A stretch of 64,000 nt of DNA from a virus. A program made the position numbers and the translations under genes. This document shows positions 19,652 through 27,386 of this stretch, piece after piece. Positions within the stretch are counted from its first letter, which is position 1. Each line of letters begins with the position of its first letter. Where the stretch lies: positions 1 through 64,000 of IMG/VR virus record IMGVR_UViG_3300042332_000310; one strand, given 5' to 3'. The notes under the pieces were generated by a model that saw only the letters and a program-made list of their open reading frames with translations, was not told the origin of the DNA and ran no database searches.

Positions 19652-19883
19652 GTATTATTTCTTTTACTTCTTTACAATTAACTTCAGATACTTGTTCAAC
19701 TATGCTTATGTATCTACCTTTCTCAAATATTTCTATATCTAATTCCCCTTTAAGTGAATCTATTAAGACTTTATCTTTTCTAATAACAGCATTTAGTTTA
19801 TCCGTCTCTTGCTTAAAAGATATAATAACTAATGTAATTGATACAAATATAAACGCAATTAAAAGAGATATAGCTTTTGGCAT
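19638..19883 (-). CDS. Small membrane-anchored coiled-coil protein, inner-spanin-like
   Basis: 81 aa. An N-terminal membrane helix (SLLIAFIFVSITLVIISF) followed by a charged helical region with one Cys. This is the shape of an Rz-type inner-membrane spanin, and it follows the endolysin (TAATG overlap at 19881-19885) as spanins often do. No sequence homology is claimed. Confidence 0.5.
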   Translation of the reverse strand: MPKAISLLIAFIFVSITLVIISFKQETDKLNAVIRKDKVLIDSLKGELDIEIFEKGRYISIVEQVSEVNCKEVKEIIHGTE

Positions 19884-20479
19884 TATGATAACAGTTGATG
19901 ATATTCTTTAAAGTGTTTTATTCTGTCAGCCAATCCAATAGTTCCACCATTTACTTTCTTAGTAACCTTTGTTACAACCTCGTCTGTTGCTCCTTGGTCA
20001 GCAACTGCATTCAATCCAGTCTTAGACCAAAACCATGCAGCAGATAAAAGTGGGTACTTTGTAGCTACTAAATCAGGATTTGCTTCAATGTTATCTTCAA
20101 CAGTCTTATCAAATGCTTGGTAGTTAGTCTTACCTGTTAATTGAATATAACCTCTTCCACGAAACTTAAATCCATCTCCACTAGCTTGATTGCCATTACC
20201 CATTCTGTTTGCATATACAATGTTAGCAATCTTCTCAGGCTTACGCTGATATTCAGCAGCACTCTCAGGAGTGAAATACTTTTTAAATATACCTACAAGA
20301 CCTTTAGCACTATAGTTTAAGTTTTCTGTAGTAACTCTAAAGCCTCCACTCTCGTGTCCTGTTTGAGCTAAAAAATGTGCTAAACGTATTGGTGTATTAA
20401 CACCAAACTTTTGAGACACTTCAGGAATCTGTTTGATAACAGAATCAGGTATATGACCCTTCAATTTATCTAAATTCAT
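19883..20479 (-). CDS. Endolysin, glycoside hydrolase family 19 (chitinase-like)
   Basis: 198 aa. GHESGGF (Glu43) and TENLNYS (Glu52) fit the two catalytic glutamates of GH19, and FRGRGYIQLTGKTNYQ near 106-121 is the conserved substrate-groove segment. Phage GH19 enzymes cut the glycan strand of peptidoglycan. There is no signal peptide, so export depends on the holin encoded directly upstream (2 nt away). Full-length catalytic domain, no extra wall-binding domain. Confidence 0.92.
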   Translation of the reverse strand: MNLDKLKGHIPDSVIKQIPEVSQKFGVNTPIRLAHFLAQTGHESGGFRVTTENLNYSAKGLVGIFKKYFTPESAAEYQRKPEKIANIVYANRMGNGNQASGDGFKFRGRGYIQLTGKTNYQAFDKTVEDNIEANPDLVATKYPLLSAAWFWSKTGLNAVADQGATDEVVTKVTKKVNGGTIGLADRIKHFKEYHQLLS

Positions 20480-20480
20480 T

Positions 20481-20726
20481 TTACTTTTCCTTTATATTTT
20501 TATTACCAAATACAGCTTCTACGCCAGTGATACCACACATAGTTAGTGCTGTATACATAAGGCCGTTAAATACGATAGGTTCAATAACAAATGCAATACC
20601 CATTGCACCTGTAACTACATCTGTGATAGCATAGATAGCCATTAACAGAAATGATACAAACCCTAATACAGCCTTTTGATTTACGTCAGACTTATCGCTG
20701 AACATTCTAAGTAAAAATTCTTTCAT
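20481..20726 (-). CDS. Holin
   Basis: 81 aa with two or three hydrophobic segments (about 20-37, 39-50 and 52-70), a charged N-terminus and a Lys/Glu tail. Size, topology and position directly before the endolysin support a holin that opens the inner membrane. Confidence 0.75.
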   Translation of the reverse strand: MKEFLLRMFSDKSDVNQKAVLGFVSFLLMAIYAITDVVTGAMGIAFVIEPIVFNGLMYTALTMCGITGVEAVFGNKNIKEK

Positions 20727-20728
20727 GT

Positions 20729-21331
20729 TTATTTTATTTTCCAGTAAATAGATGCGTTAACAAATGGTGTCTTATTGATGTCAACACCAGCTCCTACGTT
20801 ATATATTTTATCACATTTGGTATTCAATAGTAAGTTAACCTGTATGTTATTTACAAAGTTAACCTTGTCAAATGAAGCTCCTACACCCCAAAACAGCTTA
20901 GTCTTAGGTAATTCCTTTACAATTGTAGTCTCCTTGATTGTTCTTTGCTTTACATTAGCTGTAAACATTCTAGACTCAATTGTGTTCTTACTAATAGTAT
21001 CTAACAGTACAACGTATCCTAAGCTATCTGGTAGACGTAAGGTGTCCTTGTATACGTTCTTAGCGAAATACATTTTAATAATTTCTAATGTGTCTACATT
21101 CATTGAAACTTGTACGAAGATTGTCGTATCGTGGTAGATATCTTTACCTTGCTTAGTAATGACTTTGGTCTTAATAATGTCAACAGTGTCTATCTCATGC
21201 TTTATAACCTCATAAGGTTTGCCTGCAACATATTTTATCTTAGGTGAGAATGGGTTCTTTACTCCTGTCATCTTTGAGAACACAAGCAAGACAACTATCA
21301 CCAAAACTGCTATCTGTAATATCTTTTTCAT
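20729..21331 (-). CDS. Membrane-anchored spanin-like protein
   Basis: 200 aa. N-terminal membrane anchor (LQIAVLVIVVLLVFS), a periplasmic part with KDIYHDTTIFVQVS and a C-terminal set of strands ending in an aromatic/Lys motif (NASIYWKIK), like an outer-membrane beta segment. It heads the lysis cassette. A protein crossing the periplasm from inner to outer membrane would be a one-piece spanin; that is inferred. The -7 element TAAATTTG ends 4 nt before the ATG, so the transcript may be nearly leaderless. Confidence 0.55.
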   Translation of the reverse strand: MKKILQIAVLVIVVLLVFSKMTGVKNPFSPKIKYVAGKPYEVIKHEIDTVDIIKTKVITKQGKDIYHDTTIFVQVSMNVDTLEIIKMYFAKNVYKDTLRLPDSLGYVVLLDTISKNTIESRMFTANVKQRTIKETTIVKELPKTKLFWGVGASFDKVNFVNNIQVNLLLNTKCDKIYNVGAGVDINKTPFVNASIYWKIK

Positions 21332-21387: not shown

Positions 21388-21552
21388 TGACTCATATTTA
21401 TCCCATATAAGTCACATTGATACATTTTGCATGAATTATTAGAAAATTTCATGCAGATTCTGTCACAATTTTTCAAATATTTGTGACATATTATACCCTA
21501 TAGCGTATAAAGTAACATATAAAATACCTTATTATACCCTATCACGTATAAT
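21388..21552. repeat. Array of five inverted repeats in the intergenic region
   Basis: In order: TGACT-c-ATAT / ATAT-a-AGTCA (21388-21414); TGCATGAA / TTCATGCA with a 12-nt spacer (21428-21455); TGTCACAA / TTGTGACA with a 12-nt spacer (21461-21488); and two copies of TTATACCCTAT-nn-CGTATAA (21491-21510 and 21533-21552), each with TTATAC/GTATAA arms. The two last copies are exactly 42 bp apart, four helical turns. The region separates the exported-protein cluster from the lysis genes and holds no gene. Confidence 0.65.
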
Positions 21553-22802
21553 TATAAGTTAAATTTAGTCCCTATTAGAAGCCCAATCATATTGACAGGG
21601 TACATGTATTTTACGTTAGTGCTGAGCCTAAAACGCTTAGATATGGCTATATCAAATGATGAGCCTACAATATAGGTCATTTGGCTAGTAGCCGCAAAGT
21701 CCTTTGACTTGCTAGAGTAAGATAAAGGGTTAGACATTATAAATAACTCAGGGGTAATGCCTAGTCTTTTGCTGTAGGTAATAGGCTTCATACCAAACAG
21801 CACTATAGAAGATGCCCAGAACTGCTGTTTCACGCTCTCAAATGGAATAGATGTATTGATAAGGCTTAAGGCATAACCATAGACATATGACTTATGCGTC
21901 ATTACATATGAATTTCCTATAATATGTAGTAAATCTCCTGCATTATAAGCTAGCGTATATGACATTGTAGAAATACCACATAATTTACCATCCTGTATGT
22001 TCATTTTAGAATACCTCGTAGATAGGGCAAATTGCCTTAAATTTGAGAAGATTGTAAGCGTTGAGCCATAAGATACGTCTCCTGCCATAGATGCCCTAGA
22101 AACGCCTAAATTTGCCATTAAATTAAACTCACCTTGAATCTGTTGAACCGCACTCATATCAGACGAAAAAATCAATGGCGTTTGGCCTGCTTTTGCGGAA
22201 GACTTTTTCTTTTCTTCCTTTTTTTCTTCTTTTTTCTCTTCCTTTTTCTCCTCGGATTTTTCTTCACTTTTGCTTTCAGATTTGCTTTCAGAAGACTCAG
22301 AACTGCTTTCGCTAGAAGATGAGCTACTCTCGCTACTTGATGAAGATTCACTAGAGCTACTCTGACTACTTGACGAGCTAGATGAAGATGACGCTGCTGG
22401 AGCAGGTGGAGGTGGTGCGCTTGCTGCCGCAGATGACGCTGCTGATGATGCCGCTGAACTTGCTGCACTTGATGCTGCCGCACTAGCTGTAGAAGCGATT
22501 GTATTAGCTACTGTCTGCTGTGTTAACTGTTGTGCTAATTGAGCAACAGGGCATGGCGCTGAATACTCTGCATATACTTGATTTACCCAAGTCATTAAAG
22601 CTCCTGACTTTACATCTTGAGCTGTTATGTATTTAGACTTGCCCATAAACGTAAGCGTAGTGCCTTGTAGTGGAACTATAAATACAGTTACACTCTTACT
22701 GCATGGGTCTACGAATGTACTCGTAAGTATCTGAGAGTATGAAAATAAAGGTAGTAATACTACTACCAATAGAGATAAAATAAACTTATTTAGGGAATAC
22801 AT
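21552..22802 (-). CDS. Exported low-complexity protein with outer-membrane-like C-terminal domain
   Basis: 416 aa from ATG 22802 (13 residues shorter than the longest frame), so the protein begins with the signal peptide MYSLNKFILSLLVVVLLPLF and a cleavage site after SYSQ. An N-terminal domain of about 90 residues has two Cys. A 120-residue low-complexity part follows: Ala/Ser repeats (SSAA), a Pro patch, poly-Ser with Glu, then Lys/Glu repeats (EKKEEKKEEKK). The last 190 residues are beta-rich with alternating hydrophobics and end in Leu-type strands, like an outer-membrane or PorV-type barrel. It overlaps the CsgG-like gene by 17 nt. Function unknown. Confidence 0.65.
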   Translation of the reverse strand: MYSLNKFILSLLVVVLLPLFSYSQILTSTFVDPCSKSVTVFIVPLQGTTLTFMGKSKYITAQDVKSGALMTWVNQVYAEYSAPCPVAQLAQQLTQQTVANTIASTASAAASSAASSAASSAASSAAASAPPPPAPAASSSSSSSSSQSSSSESSSSSESSSSSSESSSESSESKSESKSEEKSEEKKEEKKEEKKEEKKKSSAKAGQTPLIFSSDMSAVQQIQGEFNLMANLGVSRASMAGDVSYGSTLTIFSNLRQFALSTRYSKMNIQDGKLCGISTMSYTLAYNAGDLLHIIGNSYVMTHKSYVYGYALSLINTSIPFESVKQQFWASSIVLFGMKPITYSKRLGITPELFIMSNPLSYSSKSKDFAATSQMTYIVGSSFDIAISKRFRLSTNVKYMYPVNMIGLLIGTKFNL

Positions 22803-23502
22803 TCTTTTTAACCATTCTTGATAGGATGCGAGCACACGCAATATCTAGTGCTTTCTTTGTGGCTGTTCCTATGGTTGATTGGTTAAACTTAACTTCTGAC
22901 AAATTCTCGTCATTAAGTAAGCTTGCTTCACGTGTAGTCTTTGCTTCTCCAAGACCAGACGCTGCTATAATTTCTCCTGTCTCTGCATTCGTAAATCGTA
23001 CTTGTAATCCTATTCTTGTTACAACAGTTTCCTTGATACCATCCTTTACTCTAATCTCCTCATCTTCTGAAATAGAATAATCGTAGCATTCAATCTCTAC
23101 GAAGTAGTGGGCTAGTCTAATCTTTCCTCGTCCATCCAGCTTATCTTGAGAAATTCCTGACTGCGAGGCTTGAAACTGTTTGACCATACGGTTTTTAATT
23201 TCCGTCTTGTCTTCTGTAAAGGTAAAACGATTGAGATTTTCAAGGTACTCAAGGGTGATGTTTGCAACACCCAAACCGACACGCTTTTCTTTAAGCTCTG
23301 GATACTGTTCATACATTTCATCTGATATTCCGCATTTTAAGATTTGAATTGGTATAGTCGGGCCATCATAATCCATGTATTGACTAATGTCAATTTTAGT
23401 CTCAAAGCTAGCCTTGAAGTTCTCTGTCTTAGTTGTCGCTACCTGTGAAATACCACTAACAGATAGCAACAACAATACAATAATATGAGTCAGTTTTTGC
23501 AT
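22786..23502 (-). CDS. CsgG-like secreted protein
   Basis: 238 aa with the signal peptide MQKLTHIIVLLLLSVSGIS. The mature part follows the CsgG/curli secretion channel pattern: RVGLGVANITLEYL, LNRFTFTEDKTEI, a RLAHYFVEIECYDY strand, VVTRIGLQVRFTNAETGEII, then TATKKALDIACARILSRMV at the end. CsgG-family proteins form lipoprotein pores in the outer membrane; here no lipobox Cys is seen, so it may be periplasmic or unlipidated. It is co-transcribed with other exported proteins of the cluster. Confidence 0.65.
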   Translation of the reverse strand: MQKLTHIIVLLLLSVSGISQVATTKTENFKASFETKIDISQYMDYDGPTIPIQILKCGISDEMYEQYPELKEKRVGLGVANITLEYLENLNRFTFTEDKTEIKNRMVKQFQASQSGISQDKLDGRGKIRLAHYFVEIECYDYSISEDEEIRVKDGIKETVVTRIGLQVRFTNAETGEIIAASGLGEAKTTREASLLNDENLSEVKFNQSTIGTATKKALDIACARILSRMVKKNVFPK

Positions 23503-23518
23503 TTTTTGACTTATGTTT

Positions 23519-24082
23519 TTATTTATCTTTCAAAAGTCCGCATTTTTGACACTCAAGTTCTCCGTCTCCGTCAGAATCTCCCCAAACATGCTCACATTGT
23601 CTGTGCGCTTGATATTCAAATTCTAACTTCTCCATTTCTTGCTCATGCTCTTGTTGGTCTCTCTTAAGTTCAAAGTTTTGTCTGTTCTCTGTAACAGCTA
23701 AATCTCTAGCAGCCTCAGCACCTTTGATAAACGCATCAGGAATAATCGGTGTTGGAACTTTGTTTGTTTCCTTCATGTCGTTAGTATGAGATAGCGTTAC
23801 ACCATCTTCTTCATCCATTTTTTGTACCAACATCTTATCCTTGTCTGCATCAGAATAGTAGTAGTCTATAATCTTACCATAGCTACCTATAAATGCACCT
23901 AGTAATAATAATAACAGCTCCTTCCACTCAGCACCCATTGCTGTACCTGTAGCGATTGCTGCAAATATTCCTAATAAGATTAATACAAATAGTCCTAATA
24001 CGATGGCTGTTACATACCATCTTTTATCCATTAAACTAGTTAAAAGGTCTTTAAAACCTGATTGCTGTTGAGGCTTGTCCAT
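23519..24082 (-). CDS. Two-span membrane protein with coiled coil and zinc ribbon
   Basis: 187 aa. Two hydrophobic helices (about 23-46 and 54-70), an Asp/Lys-rich linker, a long charged helix (residues 120-160) and a C-terminal zinc-binding tip with CEHVWGDSDGDGELECQKCG. The membrane part resembles holin-type phage membrane proteins; a second holin or an anchor for a cytosolic complex is possible. The start overlaps the 47-aa micro-gene by about 43 nt. Confidence 0.6.
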   Translation of the reverse strand: MDKPQQQSGFKDLLTSLMDKRWYVTAIVLGLFVLILLGIFAAIATGTAMGAEWKELLLLLLGAFIGSYGKIIDYYYSDADKDKMLVQKMDEEDGVTLSHTNDMKETNKVPTPIIPDAFIKGAEAARDLAVTENRQNFELKRDQQEHEQEMEKLEFEYQAHRQCEHVWGDSDGDGELECQKCGLLKDK

Positions 24083-24183
24083 ACGTTATAAATTGTTTCT
24101 TGATTACTATTAATTAATTGAGCTGTTTTTTTGCCTGAACGTATACTACGTTTTGCTCTAGGCTTTTTTGCTTTATTTGCCAT
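24040..24183 (-). CDS. 47-aa basic micro-protein
   Basis: Starts MANKAKKPRAKRSIRSGKKT. Its ATG overlaps the stop of the preceding gene as TAATG (24181-24185), which strongly suggests coupled translation, and it overlaps the next gene by 43 nt in another frame. Nucleic-acid or membrane-surface binding is likely from its charge only. Confidence 0.5.
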   Translation of the reverse strand: MANKAKKPRAKRSIRSGKKTAQLINSNQETIYNVWTSLNSNQVLKTF

Positions 24184-24488
24184 TACCAAGCTGCTGGTTT
24201 TTCTTTGAACTCATCCGCTTCTTTTTTAGGCTTAGCTGGTTGAGGTTTTGCTGCTACTTCTTTCTCTTTGATAATCACAGTTTTACCACCACCTGCCGCT
24301 TGTTGTTGCGTTTGGTTGTTTTGTATATTAATTACTGGAGCTGCTTGTTGAACAGGTGTTTCTTTTTCATCTCCTCCTGTTAACTTAGTAGTTATCCATC
24401 CACCTACACCTAAAGTAATTGTGCTAACGAATCCTATGATTACATTTTTCATAGAACTACCAGTTGATTGTTCTTGTTCTTCTGACAT
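24183..24488 (-). CDS. Single-span membrane protein with Gln/Pro-rich tail
   Basis: 101 aa. One hydrophobic segment (NVIIGFVSTITLGVGGWITT) and a long low-complexity tail rich in Gln, Pro, Ala, Lys and Glu. It sits between the lipoprotein and the coiled-coil membrane protein. No family recognised. Confidence 0.55.
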   Translation of the reverse strand: MSEEQEQSTGSSMKNVIIGFVSTITLGVGGWITTKLTGGDEKETPVQQAAPVINIQNNQTQQQAAGGGKTVIIKEKEVAAKPQPAKPKKEADEFKEKPAAW

Positions 24489-24494
24489 ATTATA

Positions 24495-24845
24495 TTATTT
24501 TATAATTATTGGGGTTCTAGTTTCCTGACCATTTATATTCATCAAAATTAAGTCATAAGTACCACTCTGCAAACCAGACAGATTCTCTTCCTTAATTAAA
24601 AAGCCATCTACAGAAGATAGCCCATAAGATTTATAGACTTTGCCTGACATATCCTTAATTGTTACATTGTACTTTGCAGAAGGCTGTAAGTTAAAACTCA
24701 TAGTAATAGGGCCAGTTGTTGGCGTTGGAGCTACATTTACATACCCTTGCTTGTCAGGCTTTGCAGCTTGTGGAGCAGGATAATACTCTATTTTCTTACA
24801 TGCAGATATCGCAACGACACAGAAAAGGATTATAATTTTTTTCAT
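24495..24845 (-). CDS. Lipoprotein with a type IX sorting-like C-terminal domain
   Basis: 116 aa. Lipoprotein signal MKKIIILFCVVAISACKK with Cys16 as the probable lipidation site. The rest matches the C-terminal sorting domain of Bacteroidota type IX secretion substrates in order: APTPTTGPITMSFNL, YNVTIKDMSGKVYKSYG, LSGLQSGTYDLILMNINGQ and a basic end (PIIIK). In normal substrates this domain sits at the end of large exported proteins; here it is almost the entire protein and is lipidated. It could occupy or jam the host secretion machinery, or be displayed on the surface. Function is inference; the resemblance is directly visible. Confidence 0.6.
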   Translation of the reverse strand: MKKIIILFCVVAISACKKIEYYPAPQAAKPDKQGYVNVAPTPTTGPITMSFNLQPSAKYNVTIKDMSGKVYKSYGLSSVDGFLIKEENLSGLQSGTYDLILMNINGQETRTPIIIK

Positions 24846-24846
24846 A

Positions 24847-26490
24847 TTATTTAAAGTTGTTTATACCGATTAAACGAATTAATGCTGTGTTTAGGCTTAT
24901 TCCTATTTGGTTTCCTTTATTATCAGACGCATCCATATTATCTGTTACACCTACATAAGTATTTATGTCAGTGCCTGCAGACTTAGCCTTAAATATAACC
25001 GTAAACGGTACAATAGTTCCTTTTATTGGCTCTTTTAATGTCTTGTCTATACCACCAAACTTAACATAGCCATCACCATTCGTAAAGAAGTTAAGCCAAG
25101 ATGGATTGGTATTAGCCTTAATTTCTTGCAACTGAAGTTTAGTTGCATCATAGGTAAACTCAAACTGTATACCGCATACAGATAATTCATTGGTATTTAC
25201 AGATATAGGTATAGATATATTATCTGATTCAACTACTGCGTTAGCTAAACTAACAGCGATGGCTTTCTTTTGTATTGGTGTATTCACTAGTGAAAATGAT
25301 TGAATTGTTCCGTCCCTAGCTACAACTTGTGAGCTATGGCTTCTGTTGATATCTCCTGCTATAAGGTAGTTTAATTCTAAGGCCTGATTGGCATTAGTAG
25401 TACGAAAATACACAAACTCTTGCGGAGTTAAAGTATCCTTGCTAAACTCATCCCTCTTATAAGTATACACCTTTGGGTCTATGTTATTGGTAGCAGCAAC
25501 TTGTGCAAGTACAAGGTAAGGGTCTGCAGCATCAAATGAGCCATTATAGTTCACATCAGCAGCCAACCAAGCAGCACCTGACTTTAAATTAGTCTTATTA
25601 AAAGTGCCATCTAAATTAACAGAACCAAACTCATTTAACGCAGCTGTCGCATCTGATACCGTAACAGCTGATTTAGTCGCATTTAAGAGGCTATCTATGA
25701 TAACTGATACTTTGTATGTCCTATTGGCTAAAAGCTCCGTAGAAGCCTTAAAAACGCCATTTACATCAGGAGTAAGCGTAACAGAATTTGTTGAGGCCGA
25801 GTCGGTAAACTTAATGCGAGTCTGAACAGCATTATTTTTATATATATTACCAGTAAGAAGAGTATTTGCATTAGCATCTAAAGTTATAAATGTGCTCTTA
25901 GGAAGAGGCATATAAGTATCAATATAAGTACCATCCGATTTCCAGCCCGACACGAAGTTCATATACAAACTATCATAAGCCGTTCCTGCTGGCACATTGT
26001 TTATCTTAAGACGTATCTTGATGTATTTCCCATCACGTAGATTGCTATTTGAAGTAACTGTAGTGTAGATTCTCTGGATAGCATTATTGCCATTTGGTGA
26101 ATATACATAGTTAGCATAATTGTAATTCTGTGAACCATTTTGTGTTGTGTTTTGAGCTGTTCTAATATATGTAAATCCTGGATGGAAGCTGTTTTGAATA
26201 CTCATTGTAGCACCTGTAGGCATAGCACTGCTATCGTCACTAAAGTTAGTTACGCTTAATATAGTATATGTTCTATAGTTATACTGAAAGTCAAAATATA
26301 GCGTTCTAGTAGAAGATGATTTCTCCTTATACATAACCACCATATCAACAGTATCCCCTTTAAGGATACTCGTATCTTTTATATTTCTAGTAATATTAGA
26401 CTTCTCTAGGTAAATTTCAGGAGTTTGAGCTGTTACATTTATACATAAAAACGTAACAAGACTAAGGATTAATTTTTTGAATAAGTTCAT
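24847..26490 (-). CDS. Secreted protein with dockerin-like and cohesin-like parts
   Basis: 547 aa from ATG 26490 (21 residues shorter than the longest frame), giving the signal peptide MNLFKKLILSLVTFLCINVTA. The first part is beta-rich (residues 25-200). Around residue 310 a calcium-loop segment ADVNYNGSFDAADPYLVLAQ fits one dockerin/EF-hand-like repeat, preceded by VSDATAALNEFG. The last 130 residues (ISIPISVNTNELSVCGIQFEF and FTYDATKLQLQEI) fit a cohesin-type beta sandwich. There is no sorting domain. It overlaps the preceding secreted-protein gene by 28 nt. Together this suggests an exported binding scaffold; the ligand is unknown. Confidence 0.6.
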   Translation of the reverse strand: MNLFKKLILSLVTFLCINVTAQTPEIYLEKSNITRNIKDTSILKGDTVDMVVMYKEKSSSTRTLYFDFQYNYRTYTILSVTNFSDDSSAMPTGATMSIQNSFHPGFTYIRTAQNTTQNGSQNYNYANYVYSPNGNNAIQRIYTTVTSNSNLRDGKYIKIRLKINNVPAGTAYDSLYMNFVSGWKSDGTYIDTYMPLPKSTFITLDANANTLLTGNIYKNNAVQTRIKFTDSASTNSVTLTPDVNGVFKASTELLANRTYKVSVIIDSLLNATKSAVTVSDATAALNEFGSVNLDGTFNKTNLKSGAAWLAADVNYNGSFDAADPYLVLAQVAATNNIDPKVYTYKRDEFSKDTLTPQEFVYFRTTNANQALELNYLIAGDINRSHSSQVVARDGTIQSFSLVNTPIQKKAIAVSLANAVVESDNISIPISVNTNELSVCGIQFEFTYDATKLQLQEIKANTNPSWLNFFTNGDGYVKFGGIDKTLKEPIKGTIVPFTVIFKAKSAGTDINTYVGVTDNMDASDNKGNQIGISLNTALIRLIGINNFK

Positions 26491-26959
26491 AGCATGCTTT
26501 TTTAATTGCTGTGCTAAGGTTCTGTTGGTTAAACTTACCGTCTGTGCCGACAAGTATCGTTGAAGTTGACACCTCGGATGCGCTACCTTCTACCAGGATT
26601 GGCTTGGACTTTTTACCATCCTTATCCATATAACCCTTGATTCTAATAACGACATCGGTGTTGTCTTTATGGAATACTGATAGGTTGCTTTTAGTCTTCA
26701 GCACATCCATATAAATCAACTCCGCAAAGATAATGTTTTTGGATGATGGGTTCAAAGCGTATCCTTTCTCTTGTAACAACTCCTCTATAATATTCTTTAC
26801 ACCAAACTCTATTTTTCTGTTGCCAGCTAAATCGCCTAGCTTAATGCTGTTCTGAACAGATATAGATATATCTTGGGCTGTAACGCTTGATACAAATAGC
26901 AAAGCCCCCATTAGGAGGCCAAGCTTATATTTACTTACACAATGAGAACTAATTTTCAT
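26462..26959 (-). CDS. Secreted protein, distantly CsgG-like
   Basis: 165 aa with a signal peptide (KLGLLMGALLFVSSVTAQ). It contains FAELIYMDVL, TDVVIRIKGYMDKDGKK and the end FNQQNLSTAIKKACYELIQK, which parallels FNQSTIGTATKKALDIACAR of the CsgG-like protein at 22786-23502. The two are probably distant paralogues or partners. It starts inside the end of the upstream gene (11-nt overlap). Confidence 0.55.
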   Translation of the reverse strand: MKISSHCVSKYKLGLLMGALLFVSSVTAQDISISVQNSIKLGDLAGNRKIEFGVKNIIEELLQEKGYALNPSSKNIIFAELIYMDVLKTKSNLSVFHKDNTDVVIRIKGYMDKDGKKSKPILVEGSASEVSTSTILVGTDGKFNQQNLSTAIKKACYELIQKINP

Positions 26960-27386
26960 CTACCAAAGGTACAATAGTAGCTTCAATTTTTTCTTTACCT
27001 AATACCTTCTCAAGTAATACTGGGAAGTAGTCGTCTGTTTCAATATTGAATAACTCAGCTACATCTAACTTAGGTACTTCAATATTCTTCTCAATAGCTT
27101 CTAACTCTTGAATTTTCTTGATTAACTCTTCTTGATTCTCAGGAGCAACAACATAAGATTCACCTTCTTGCTTACCTAATTCCTTAAAGATTTCTAATCT
27201 AGCTTCTTCATAAGATTTAACTTCTTCAGCTACAGCCTTATTCAATTCATTGTTTAATAAGTACTTAGCACGGATACTTAACTTGTGAGATAGTACACCC
27301 TTGCTTCTTTCGCCTGTTTCTCTGTTTAATAATCGTCCGTTTAATTCTTCAAATAAAACTACGATTTCTCCTAATGTTAACTTCAT
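26949..27386 (-). CDS. Helical protein, 145 aa
   Basis: Long charged helices (RAKYLLNNELNKAVAEEVKS), no Cys, probably coiled coil. Unknown function; joined by overlap to the exported-protein cluster and separated by 1 nt from the Cys-rich gene upstream. Confidence 0.55.
   Translation of the reverse strand: MKLTLGEIVVLFEELNGRLLNRETGERSKGVLSHKLSIRAKYLLNNELNKAVAEEVKSYEEARLEIFKELGKQEGESYVVAPENQEELIKKIQELEAIEKNIEVPKLDVAELFNIETDDYFPVLLEKVLGKEKIEATIVPLVDEN

Follow-up and report, generated by a model that had tools for sequence, protein, structure and literature searches.

A gene block shared by phages, most likely of Bacteroidota, encoding CsgG-clan, barrel, cohesin and type IX sorting-like proteins with a possible role in outer-envelope export and display

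Introduction

The described systems closest to the locus reported here are the curli or type VIII system (CsgG, CsgE, CsgF and CsgA/B), the FapF barrel of Pseudomonas functional-amyloid secretion (PDB 5o65), the PelB-PelC exopolysaccharide exporter, the cargo proteins of type IX secretion, and the cohesin-dockerin contacts of cellulosomes. Phage-borne curli have been described in pelagiphages (PMC9599517) and in methylophage Melnitz (PMC9004378), and phage-encoded type IX cargo, including a PA14 protein, in Cryophage (PMC7468147). The locus is a block of eight genes, named A to H, in positions 1 to 64,000 (the window) of the IMG/VR virus record IMGVR_UViG_3300042332_000310, whose full length is 67,276 bp. 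The block is conserved as a unit among many phages, and the predicted folds and export signals of its products slightly favor a phage-encoded apparatus for export and display at the outer envelope, acting late in infection.

Each single fold found in the block is known. What appears new is the composition of the unit, which lacks defining features of the known systems. A search of the open-access literature, with subscription literature and preprints outside its scope, found no description of the block.

Gene layout and conservation

Eight minus-strand open reading frames (ORFs) fill positions 21552-26959, with intergenic spacings of -43 to +16 nucleotides. Five of the eight products carry export signals by sequence: Sec-type signal peptides on A, B, G and H, and a lipobox on C. 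In the window, the block is flanked by fibre genes on one side and by I200 (gene I), the holin-like gene J and a PHROG endolysin on the other. An earlier note, made from the letters of the window, had placed genes for exported envelope proteins, joined by short overlaps, here, between fibres and lysis genes, and both the layout and the position are confirmed. The genes are as follows.

A, 26462..26959, minus strand: exported protein of 165 amino acids (aa), probably a short CsgG-clan paralogue of G
B, 24847..26490, minus strand: exported protein of 547 aa with a C-terminal cohesin and one EF-hand, dockerin-like loop (DVNYNGSFDAAD)
C, 24495..24845, minus strand: lipoprotein consisting almost only of a type IX sorting-like (Por_Secre_tail) domain
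D, 24183..24488, minus strand: 101 aa, with one hydrophobic segment followed by a Lys/Pro/Glu-rich tail and a terminal Trp
E, 24040..24183, minus strand: basic 47-aa peptide, lineage-specific
F, 23519..24082, minus strand: predicted membrane protein with two hydrophobic segments and a conserved KDKMLVQKMDEEDG tail
G, 22786..23502, minus strand: exported CsgG-clan protein of 238 aa, the best-conserved member of the block
H, 21552..22802, minus strand: exported protein with a small disulphide-type N-terminal domain, an Ala/Ser and Lys/Glu-rich stalk, and a predicted C-terminal 12-strand outer-membrane barrel

Relatives of G were confirmed 521 times in IMG/VR, the best 80 having 75-97% identity, and a second search, on a G subfamily, yielded 246 relatives. 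The carriers are hundreds of uncultured phage genomes, on contigs of up to 434 kb. For 85 loci with full flanks, the sequence extends 9 kb or more beyond G in both directions. Every one of them has B, H, and C or the corresponding C-terminal domain (CTD); A is found in 83 of them, D in 80 and F in 65, and the strand is always the same. The sets obtained with G, F and A as baits share some contigs, contain near-identical ones and are not fully independent; within this limit, F as the bait recovered A, B, C, D, G and H each in 32 of 34 full loci, the remaining two (L210 and L218) holding F and an endolysin only, while A as the bait recovered B, C, D and J in 38/38 loci, H in 37/38 and G in 36/38. 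Every member tested shows purifying selection, with a ratio of nonsynonymous to synonymous substitution rates (dN/dS) below 0.5, and of 0.03-0.09 for G. Given this selection and the gene-by-gene conservation, chance is excluded as an explanation of the ORF block. The block is a real unit that travels together, which answers the possibility, raised in the earlier note, that these genes never do so. Peptide E, also listed there, is a real gene, though conserved mainly among close relatives (14 of 80 loci).

The carriers are most likely viruses of Bacteroidota. The sole named isolates found with G are the cultured Flavobacterium phages immuto, so that an experimental test is feasible; a tblastn search with B found no named phage, and DNA similarity to named phages amounts to a 49-bp fibre match. 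Searches of bacterial genomes gave two credible hits only, both on contigs with phage-type genes. The contigs L083 and L084, filed in bacterial metagenome-assembled genomes, look like DNA of phages, with the block, an endolysin and tail-collar-type genes. A match in Amphritea (L085, 33% over 52 aa) was considered spurious.

Predicted folds of G, A and H

The AlphaFold2 model of G, computed as a monomer only, has a predicted local distance difference test score (pLDDT) of 73 and a predicted template modeling score (pTM) of 0.66. When it was compared with all solved structures by Foldseek, CsgG ranked first (4uv2, E = 1.5e-7, probability 1.00). The CsgG structures 4uv2, 4uv3 and 6l7c match at E values of 1.5e-7 to 1e-6, with template modeling (TM) scores of 0.44-0.52, and are followed by PelC, FlgT, GNA1162 and LptE. 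The Pfam CsgG model PF03783 had no match in the whole record, in G alone, or in 24 members of the G family; hence the relation to CsgG had to rest on the fold. Sequence searches of the PDB with the G profile, the A profile and B returned nothing useful.

The N-terminal signal of G has no Cys, and a Q is conserved at the mature end. Lipobox-like matches among its relatives are scattered and, on inspection, lie upstream of the conserved AQ/GQ site, and G thus appears not to be lipidated. Its long predicted hairpin bears conserved acidic (charged) residues and no hydrophobic face, and the monomer model predicts no second hairpin. These features leave G in the CsgG clan, yet do not support a membrane pore. 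The description of G as CsgG-like in the earlier note therefore stands for the predicted fold, but not for the Pfam model, the lipobox or hairpins with a pore-type hydrophobic face.

Protein A aligns with the G profile in hhalign (probability 71%, E = 3.7e-5) over a C-terminal FNQ..KKA motif, and the family profiles of the two overlap in iterated searches. Given the shared motif and this overlap, both probably belong to the CsgG clan, A being a short paralogue of G. The block thus resembles curli in its CsgG-clan fold, its phage-borne occurrence, its several genes, and its exported, outer-membrane-related products. Unlike in curli, G and A appear to carry no lipid anchor, are not recognized by PF03783 and have no convincing membrane hairpins; the block also has a separate barrel (H), cohesin/lectin-type cargo and a linkage to endolysins. 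Pfam found no CsgE, CsgF or curlin repeats in the block proteins of the window, nor in those scanned from L083, L084 and immuto.

H is predicted to carry its 12-strand outer-membrane barrel at the end of a long stalk, which agrees with the barrel-like end that had been read in this Ser/Ala/Lys-Glu-rich protein. AlphaFold2, predicting a monomer, places 12 strands over residues 213-418, with block pLDDT values of 67-90 (mostly above 80), and hydrophobic and polar residues alternate in most of them. Ahead of the barrel come a small N-terminal domain, in which cysteines are conserved, and a low-complexity Ala/Ser and Lys/Glu stalk, an extension that would be periplasmic. In Foldseek, the closest solved structure to the barrel is FapF (E = 1.2e-7), followed by NanC, KdgM and autotransporter barrels, with PelBC also among the matches. 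These models suggest that H, rather than G, is the better pore candidate. The matches of H to Pfam families (Tim54, Zip and others) and to phrog_2229 were discarded as low-complexity noise.

FapF likewise has a 12-strand barrel after an N-terminal domain and a stalk. Its identity to H, however, is about 8%, and H differs in its disulphide-type N-terminal domain and Ser/Ala/Lys-Glu stalk; Pfam named no Fap amyloid partner among the block proteins of the window. In PelB-PelC, a CsgG-clan ring protein lies under a barrel, as could be the case here, but no polysaccharide synthase consistently accompanies the block, H is far smaller, and G does not seem to be a lipoprotein.

Cohesin, dockerin-like and sorting-like parts of B and C

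In B, Pfam identifies a cohesin (PF00963) with E = 7.4e-8 and 33.1 bits, the cut-off being 24.1. An EF-hand-type calcium loop is present in 180 of the 255 proteins of the B family and absent from all 526 other long ORFs; in B this loop is single, and Pfam reports no dockerin match there. C matches Por_Secre_tail (PF18962) with E = 6.7e-6 and 26.7 bits, just below the 27-bit cut-off, and keeps the sorting-domain features PxPTxG..F, GxY and a C-terminal IIIK, plus the lipobox, which is found in 80 of 89 stand-alone copies of C. The cohesin/dockerin-like, sorting-like and CsgG-fold parts named in the earlier note are thus supported.

The arrangement of these parts varies among phages. In the L084-type block, cohesin (5e-9) and Por_Secre_tail (1.9e-11) lie in one chain, and immuto gp15 likewise combines a cohesin with a sorting domain (Por_Secre_tail, 2.4e-8). 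Relatives carry a Sec signal and a C-terminal PF18962 on the same chain (44.5 and 34.6 bits), whereas in the lineage of the window the sorting domain is detached from B as the separate lipoprotein C. The B/C chain is split in two in L133 and L137, and some lineages, such as L058, have lost the sorting motifs. Splits at several joints suggest that the parts of B and C work together.

Many phages carry a second B-type protein (B2), in which a conserved carrier and a dockerin-like end surround interchangeable Lectin_C, Laminin_G_3, PA14 or Ig_7 domains. B itself is often just 23-40% identical where G is 76-84% identical. A diversity-generating retroelement was considered as the source of the lectin variation and rejected, no reverse transcriptase being present in 25 records.

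Type IX cargo, including that of Cryophage (PMC7468147), resembles the B relatives in having a signal peptide, a C-terminal Por_Secre_tail and PA14-type adhesin domains. The block differs in its conserved setting of about seven genes and, in the window, in having the sorting domain as a separate lipoprotein. Cellulosomes share with it the cohesin and calcium-loop dockerin-like regions in exported proteins; the block differs from them in having one calcium loop instead of the usual two repeats, in being phage-borne, and in a cargo that is of the sugar-binding kind rather than enzymatic.

Small membrane proteins

By their hydrophobic segments (one in D, two in F), D and F are predicted membrane proteins, in line with the two announced in the earlier note. 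The last residue of D is Trp in 143 of 143 relatives. PHROG and Pfam provide no name for D, F or J. In L031, the ORF called as D (64 aa) seemingly has no hydrophobic segment. An exported Trp-rich protein with a barrel-like end and no Pfam match (family u4, L010:7282-8157) lies between F and G in some relatives.

Accessory status and relation to the lysis genes

On the side of the block away from the fibres, the window holds the following genes.

I (I200), 20729..21331, minus strand: membrane-anchored protein on the lysis side, outside the conserved block
J, 20481..20726, minus strand: holin-like protein of 81 aa with two hydrophobic segments
Endolysin, 19883..20479, minus strand: chitinase/GH19-like, matching the phrog_181 endolysin at 5e-70

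J is called holin-like by its size, hydrophobic segments and neighborhood alone. Its family occurs in 50 of the 85 G-baited loci and in 38/38 A-baited ones, either inside the block or beside the endolysin. I is present in 14 of the 85 carrier loci, and also in relatives without the block.

Judging from gene content, the block is an accessory cassette shared horizontally among phages. The terminase of the window was detected in three of 22 tested carriers, all of 67-73 kb. Twenty contigs have a related terminase: nine contain both G and H, and eleven contain neither. Some of the eleven are fragments; three of them were inspected (G042, 65 kb; G049, 64 kb; G051, 58 kb). In G042, homologues of I200 and of the gene upstream of A (26949-27386) lie close together, with one fibre-like gene and none of A-H between them, and a different small endolysin-like gene follows, by reading of the sequence. 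G049 and G051, also without the block, retain I200, a J-type gene and the endolysin. Given these lysis genes are retained by block-less relatives, lysis does not appear to need the block.

This bears on the alternative that G, H, C and D are lysis auxiliaries, helping to open the outer membrane and replacing or supplementing spanins, which we consider unlikely. In its favor, 60 of 92 loci have an endolysin no more than 3 kb from the block, and L210 and L218, which lack the block, still pair F with an endolysin. Moreover, J and the endolysin may be interleaved with the block, as in the orders J-E-A-B-C-D-F-G-H and A-B-C-D-F-J-G-E-H, where E denotes the endolysin. However, relatives with the same terminase and no block keep the endolysin, holin-like and I-type genes, and in immuto the block adjoins replication genes, away from the annotated endolysin. 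Cohesin, lectin and sorting domains are also needless for a spanin, and in many phages the C domain is fused to B and has no lipobox. The envelope disruption at lysis proposed in the earlier note is accordingly weakened, and we read the endolysin linkage as shared timing rather than shared function. C and D as an outer and inner spanin pair were rejected as the main reading, given the fusion of C to B in numerous lineages and the dispensability of the block. In a relative without the block (L392:11474-12111), the endolysin has next to it a short membrane protein and then a small lipoprotein, an arrangement that resembles a spanin pair.

Proposed function and remaining alternatives

The case for export and assembly, in the export and display apparatus that we slightly favor, is drawn from predicted folds and export signals. 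H would act as an outer-membrane channel or anchor, with G and A possibly forming a periplasmic ring or gate below it, by analogy with PelC and CsgG. D and F, in the inner membrane, would be part of the same envelope apparatus. B-type proteins carrying sugar-binding modules would be kept on the cell surface by cohesin-dockerin contacts together with C or the CTD. Either form of the sorting domain, C or the fused one, might link these proteins with the outer membrane or with the type IX route of the host. We put forward tentatively that this is a new secretion and display system, with rings of G and A under a FapF-like H, linked to D and F, showing swappable lectins joined by cohesin-dockerin contacts, and mobile across unrelated phages.

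Several points weigh against this assignment. The G model is moderate (pLDDT 73, pTM 0.66), with TM scores of 0.47-0.52 to CsgG and a large root-mean-square deviation, and G may not be a pore. The likeness of H extends to 12-strand barrels generally, and not to FapF alone. No lectin domain is recognized in the window's own B, and C there is a separate protein scoring just below the Pfam cut-off; hence the display of sugar-binding cargo is drawn from relatives. Any dependence on type IX is putative; export may use the block apparatus and/or the host type IX system. Finally, the recurrent adjacency to the endolysin may be compatible with a role timed to lysis.

As to the benefit, the interchangeable lectin-type domains of the B family make surface masking or adhesion plausible. 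The benefit that we hold most likely, a conjecture that should still be regarded as doubtful, is that surface glycans are covered or altered, which would keep sibling or rival phages from adsorbing to the cell or to its debris; masking near lysis would limit superinfection and the loss of progeny on debris. Llp of phage T5 is a precedent for receptor masking. If the proposed function is correct, an accessory cassette for rebuilding the outer envelope of the host shortly before lysis is common to phages of various sizes, jumbo phages included. It would join CsgG-fold and FapF-like parts into an export and display system with viral cohesin-dockerin coupling. It would also provide a testable handle on the control of readsorption and superinfection by phages of Bacteroidota, which are frequent in both fresh water and the sea.

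The same exchange of Lectin_C, Laminin_G_3 and PA14 domains within a fixed carrier would also suit adhesion, in which displayed lectin/cohesin proteins glue infected cells to neighbors or particles, so that progeny are freed near new hosts ("sibling capture"). A similar proposal exists for phage curli (PMC9599517). We find this rather improbable, since the scans made revealed no amyloid subunit, CsgE or CsgF, and the late, lysis-linked position leaves little time for aggregation.

A type IX decoy, in which the cargo-less, lipid-anchored C and B occupy the host machinery and halt the export of receptor surface proteins, is very improbable. Although the sorting features and lipobox retained by C would suit it, elsewhere the domain forms the end of B, as in ordinary cargo, some lineages (e.g., L058) have lost the sorting motifs, and G, H and A would be left unexplained. 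That these are ordinary virion proteins lying by chance between fibres and lysis genes is barely credible: tail fibre genes adjoin the block in the window and there is one weak head/packaging PHROG match, to the low-complexity H, but the products have signal peptides, a lipobox, sorting domains and a predicted outer-membrane barrel, and the immuto block lies away from the annotated structural genes.

Other envelope genes near the block

Further genes recur near the block, and those for the TonB-dependent receptor, endonuclease and glycosyltransferase are consistent with envelope remodeling. A TonB-dependent receptor-type protein (OMP_b-brl_3 and Plug), followed by another exported protein, lies in or beside the block at L048:12684-15167 and L026:6431-8710. 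An exported DNA/RNA non-specific endonuclease (Endonuclease_NS, 1.4e-31) is found at L021:9025-9657, in about 18 other loci, and as immuto gp12. About a dozen loci, e.g., L022:10779-12290, have a pair formed by a glycosyltransferase family 2 (GT2) protein and a calcineurin-like phosphoesterase. In one phage group, a class 3 lipase gene lies immediately upstream of G (e.g., L036:9155-9928).

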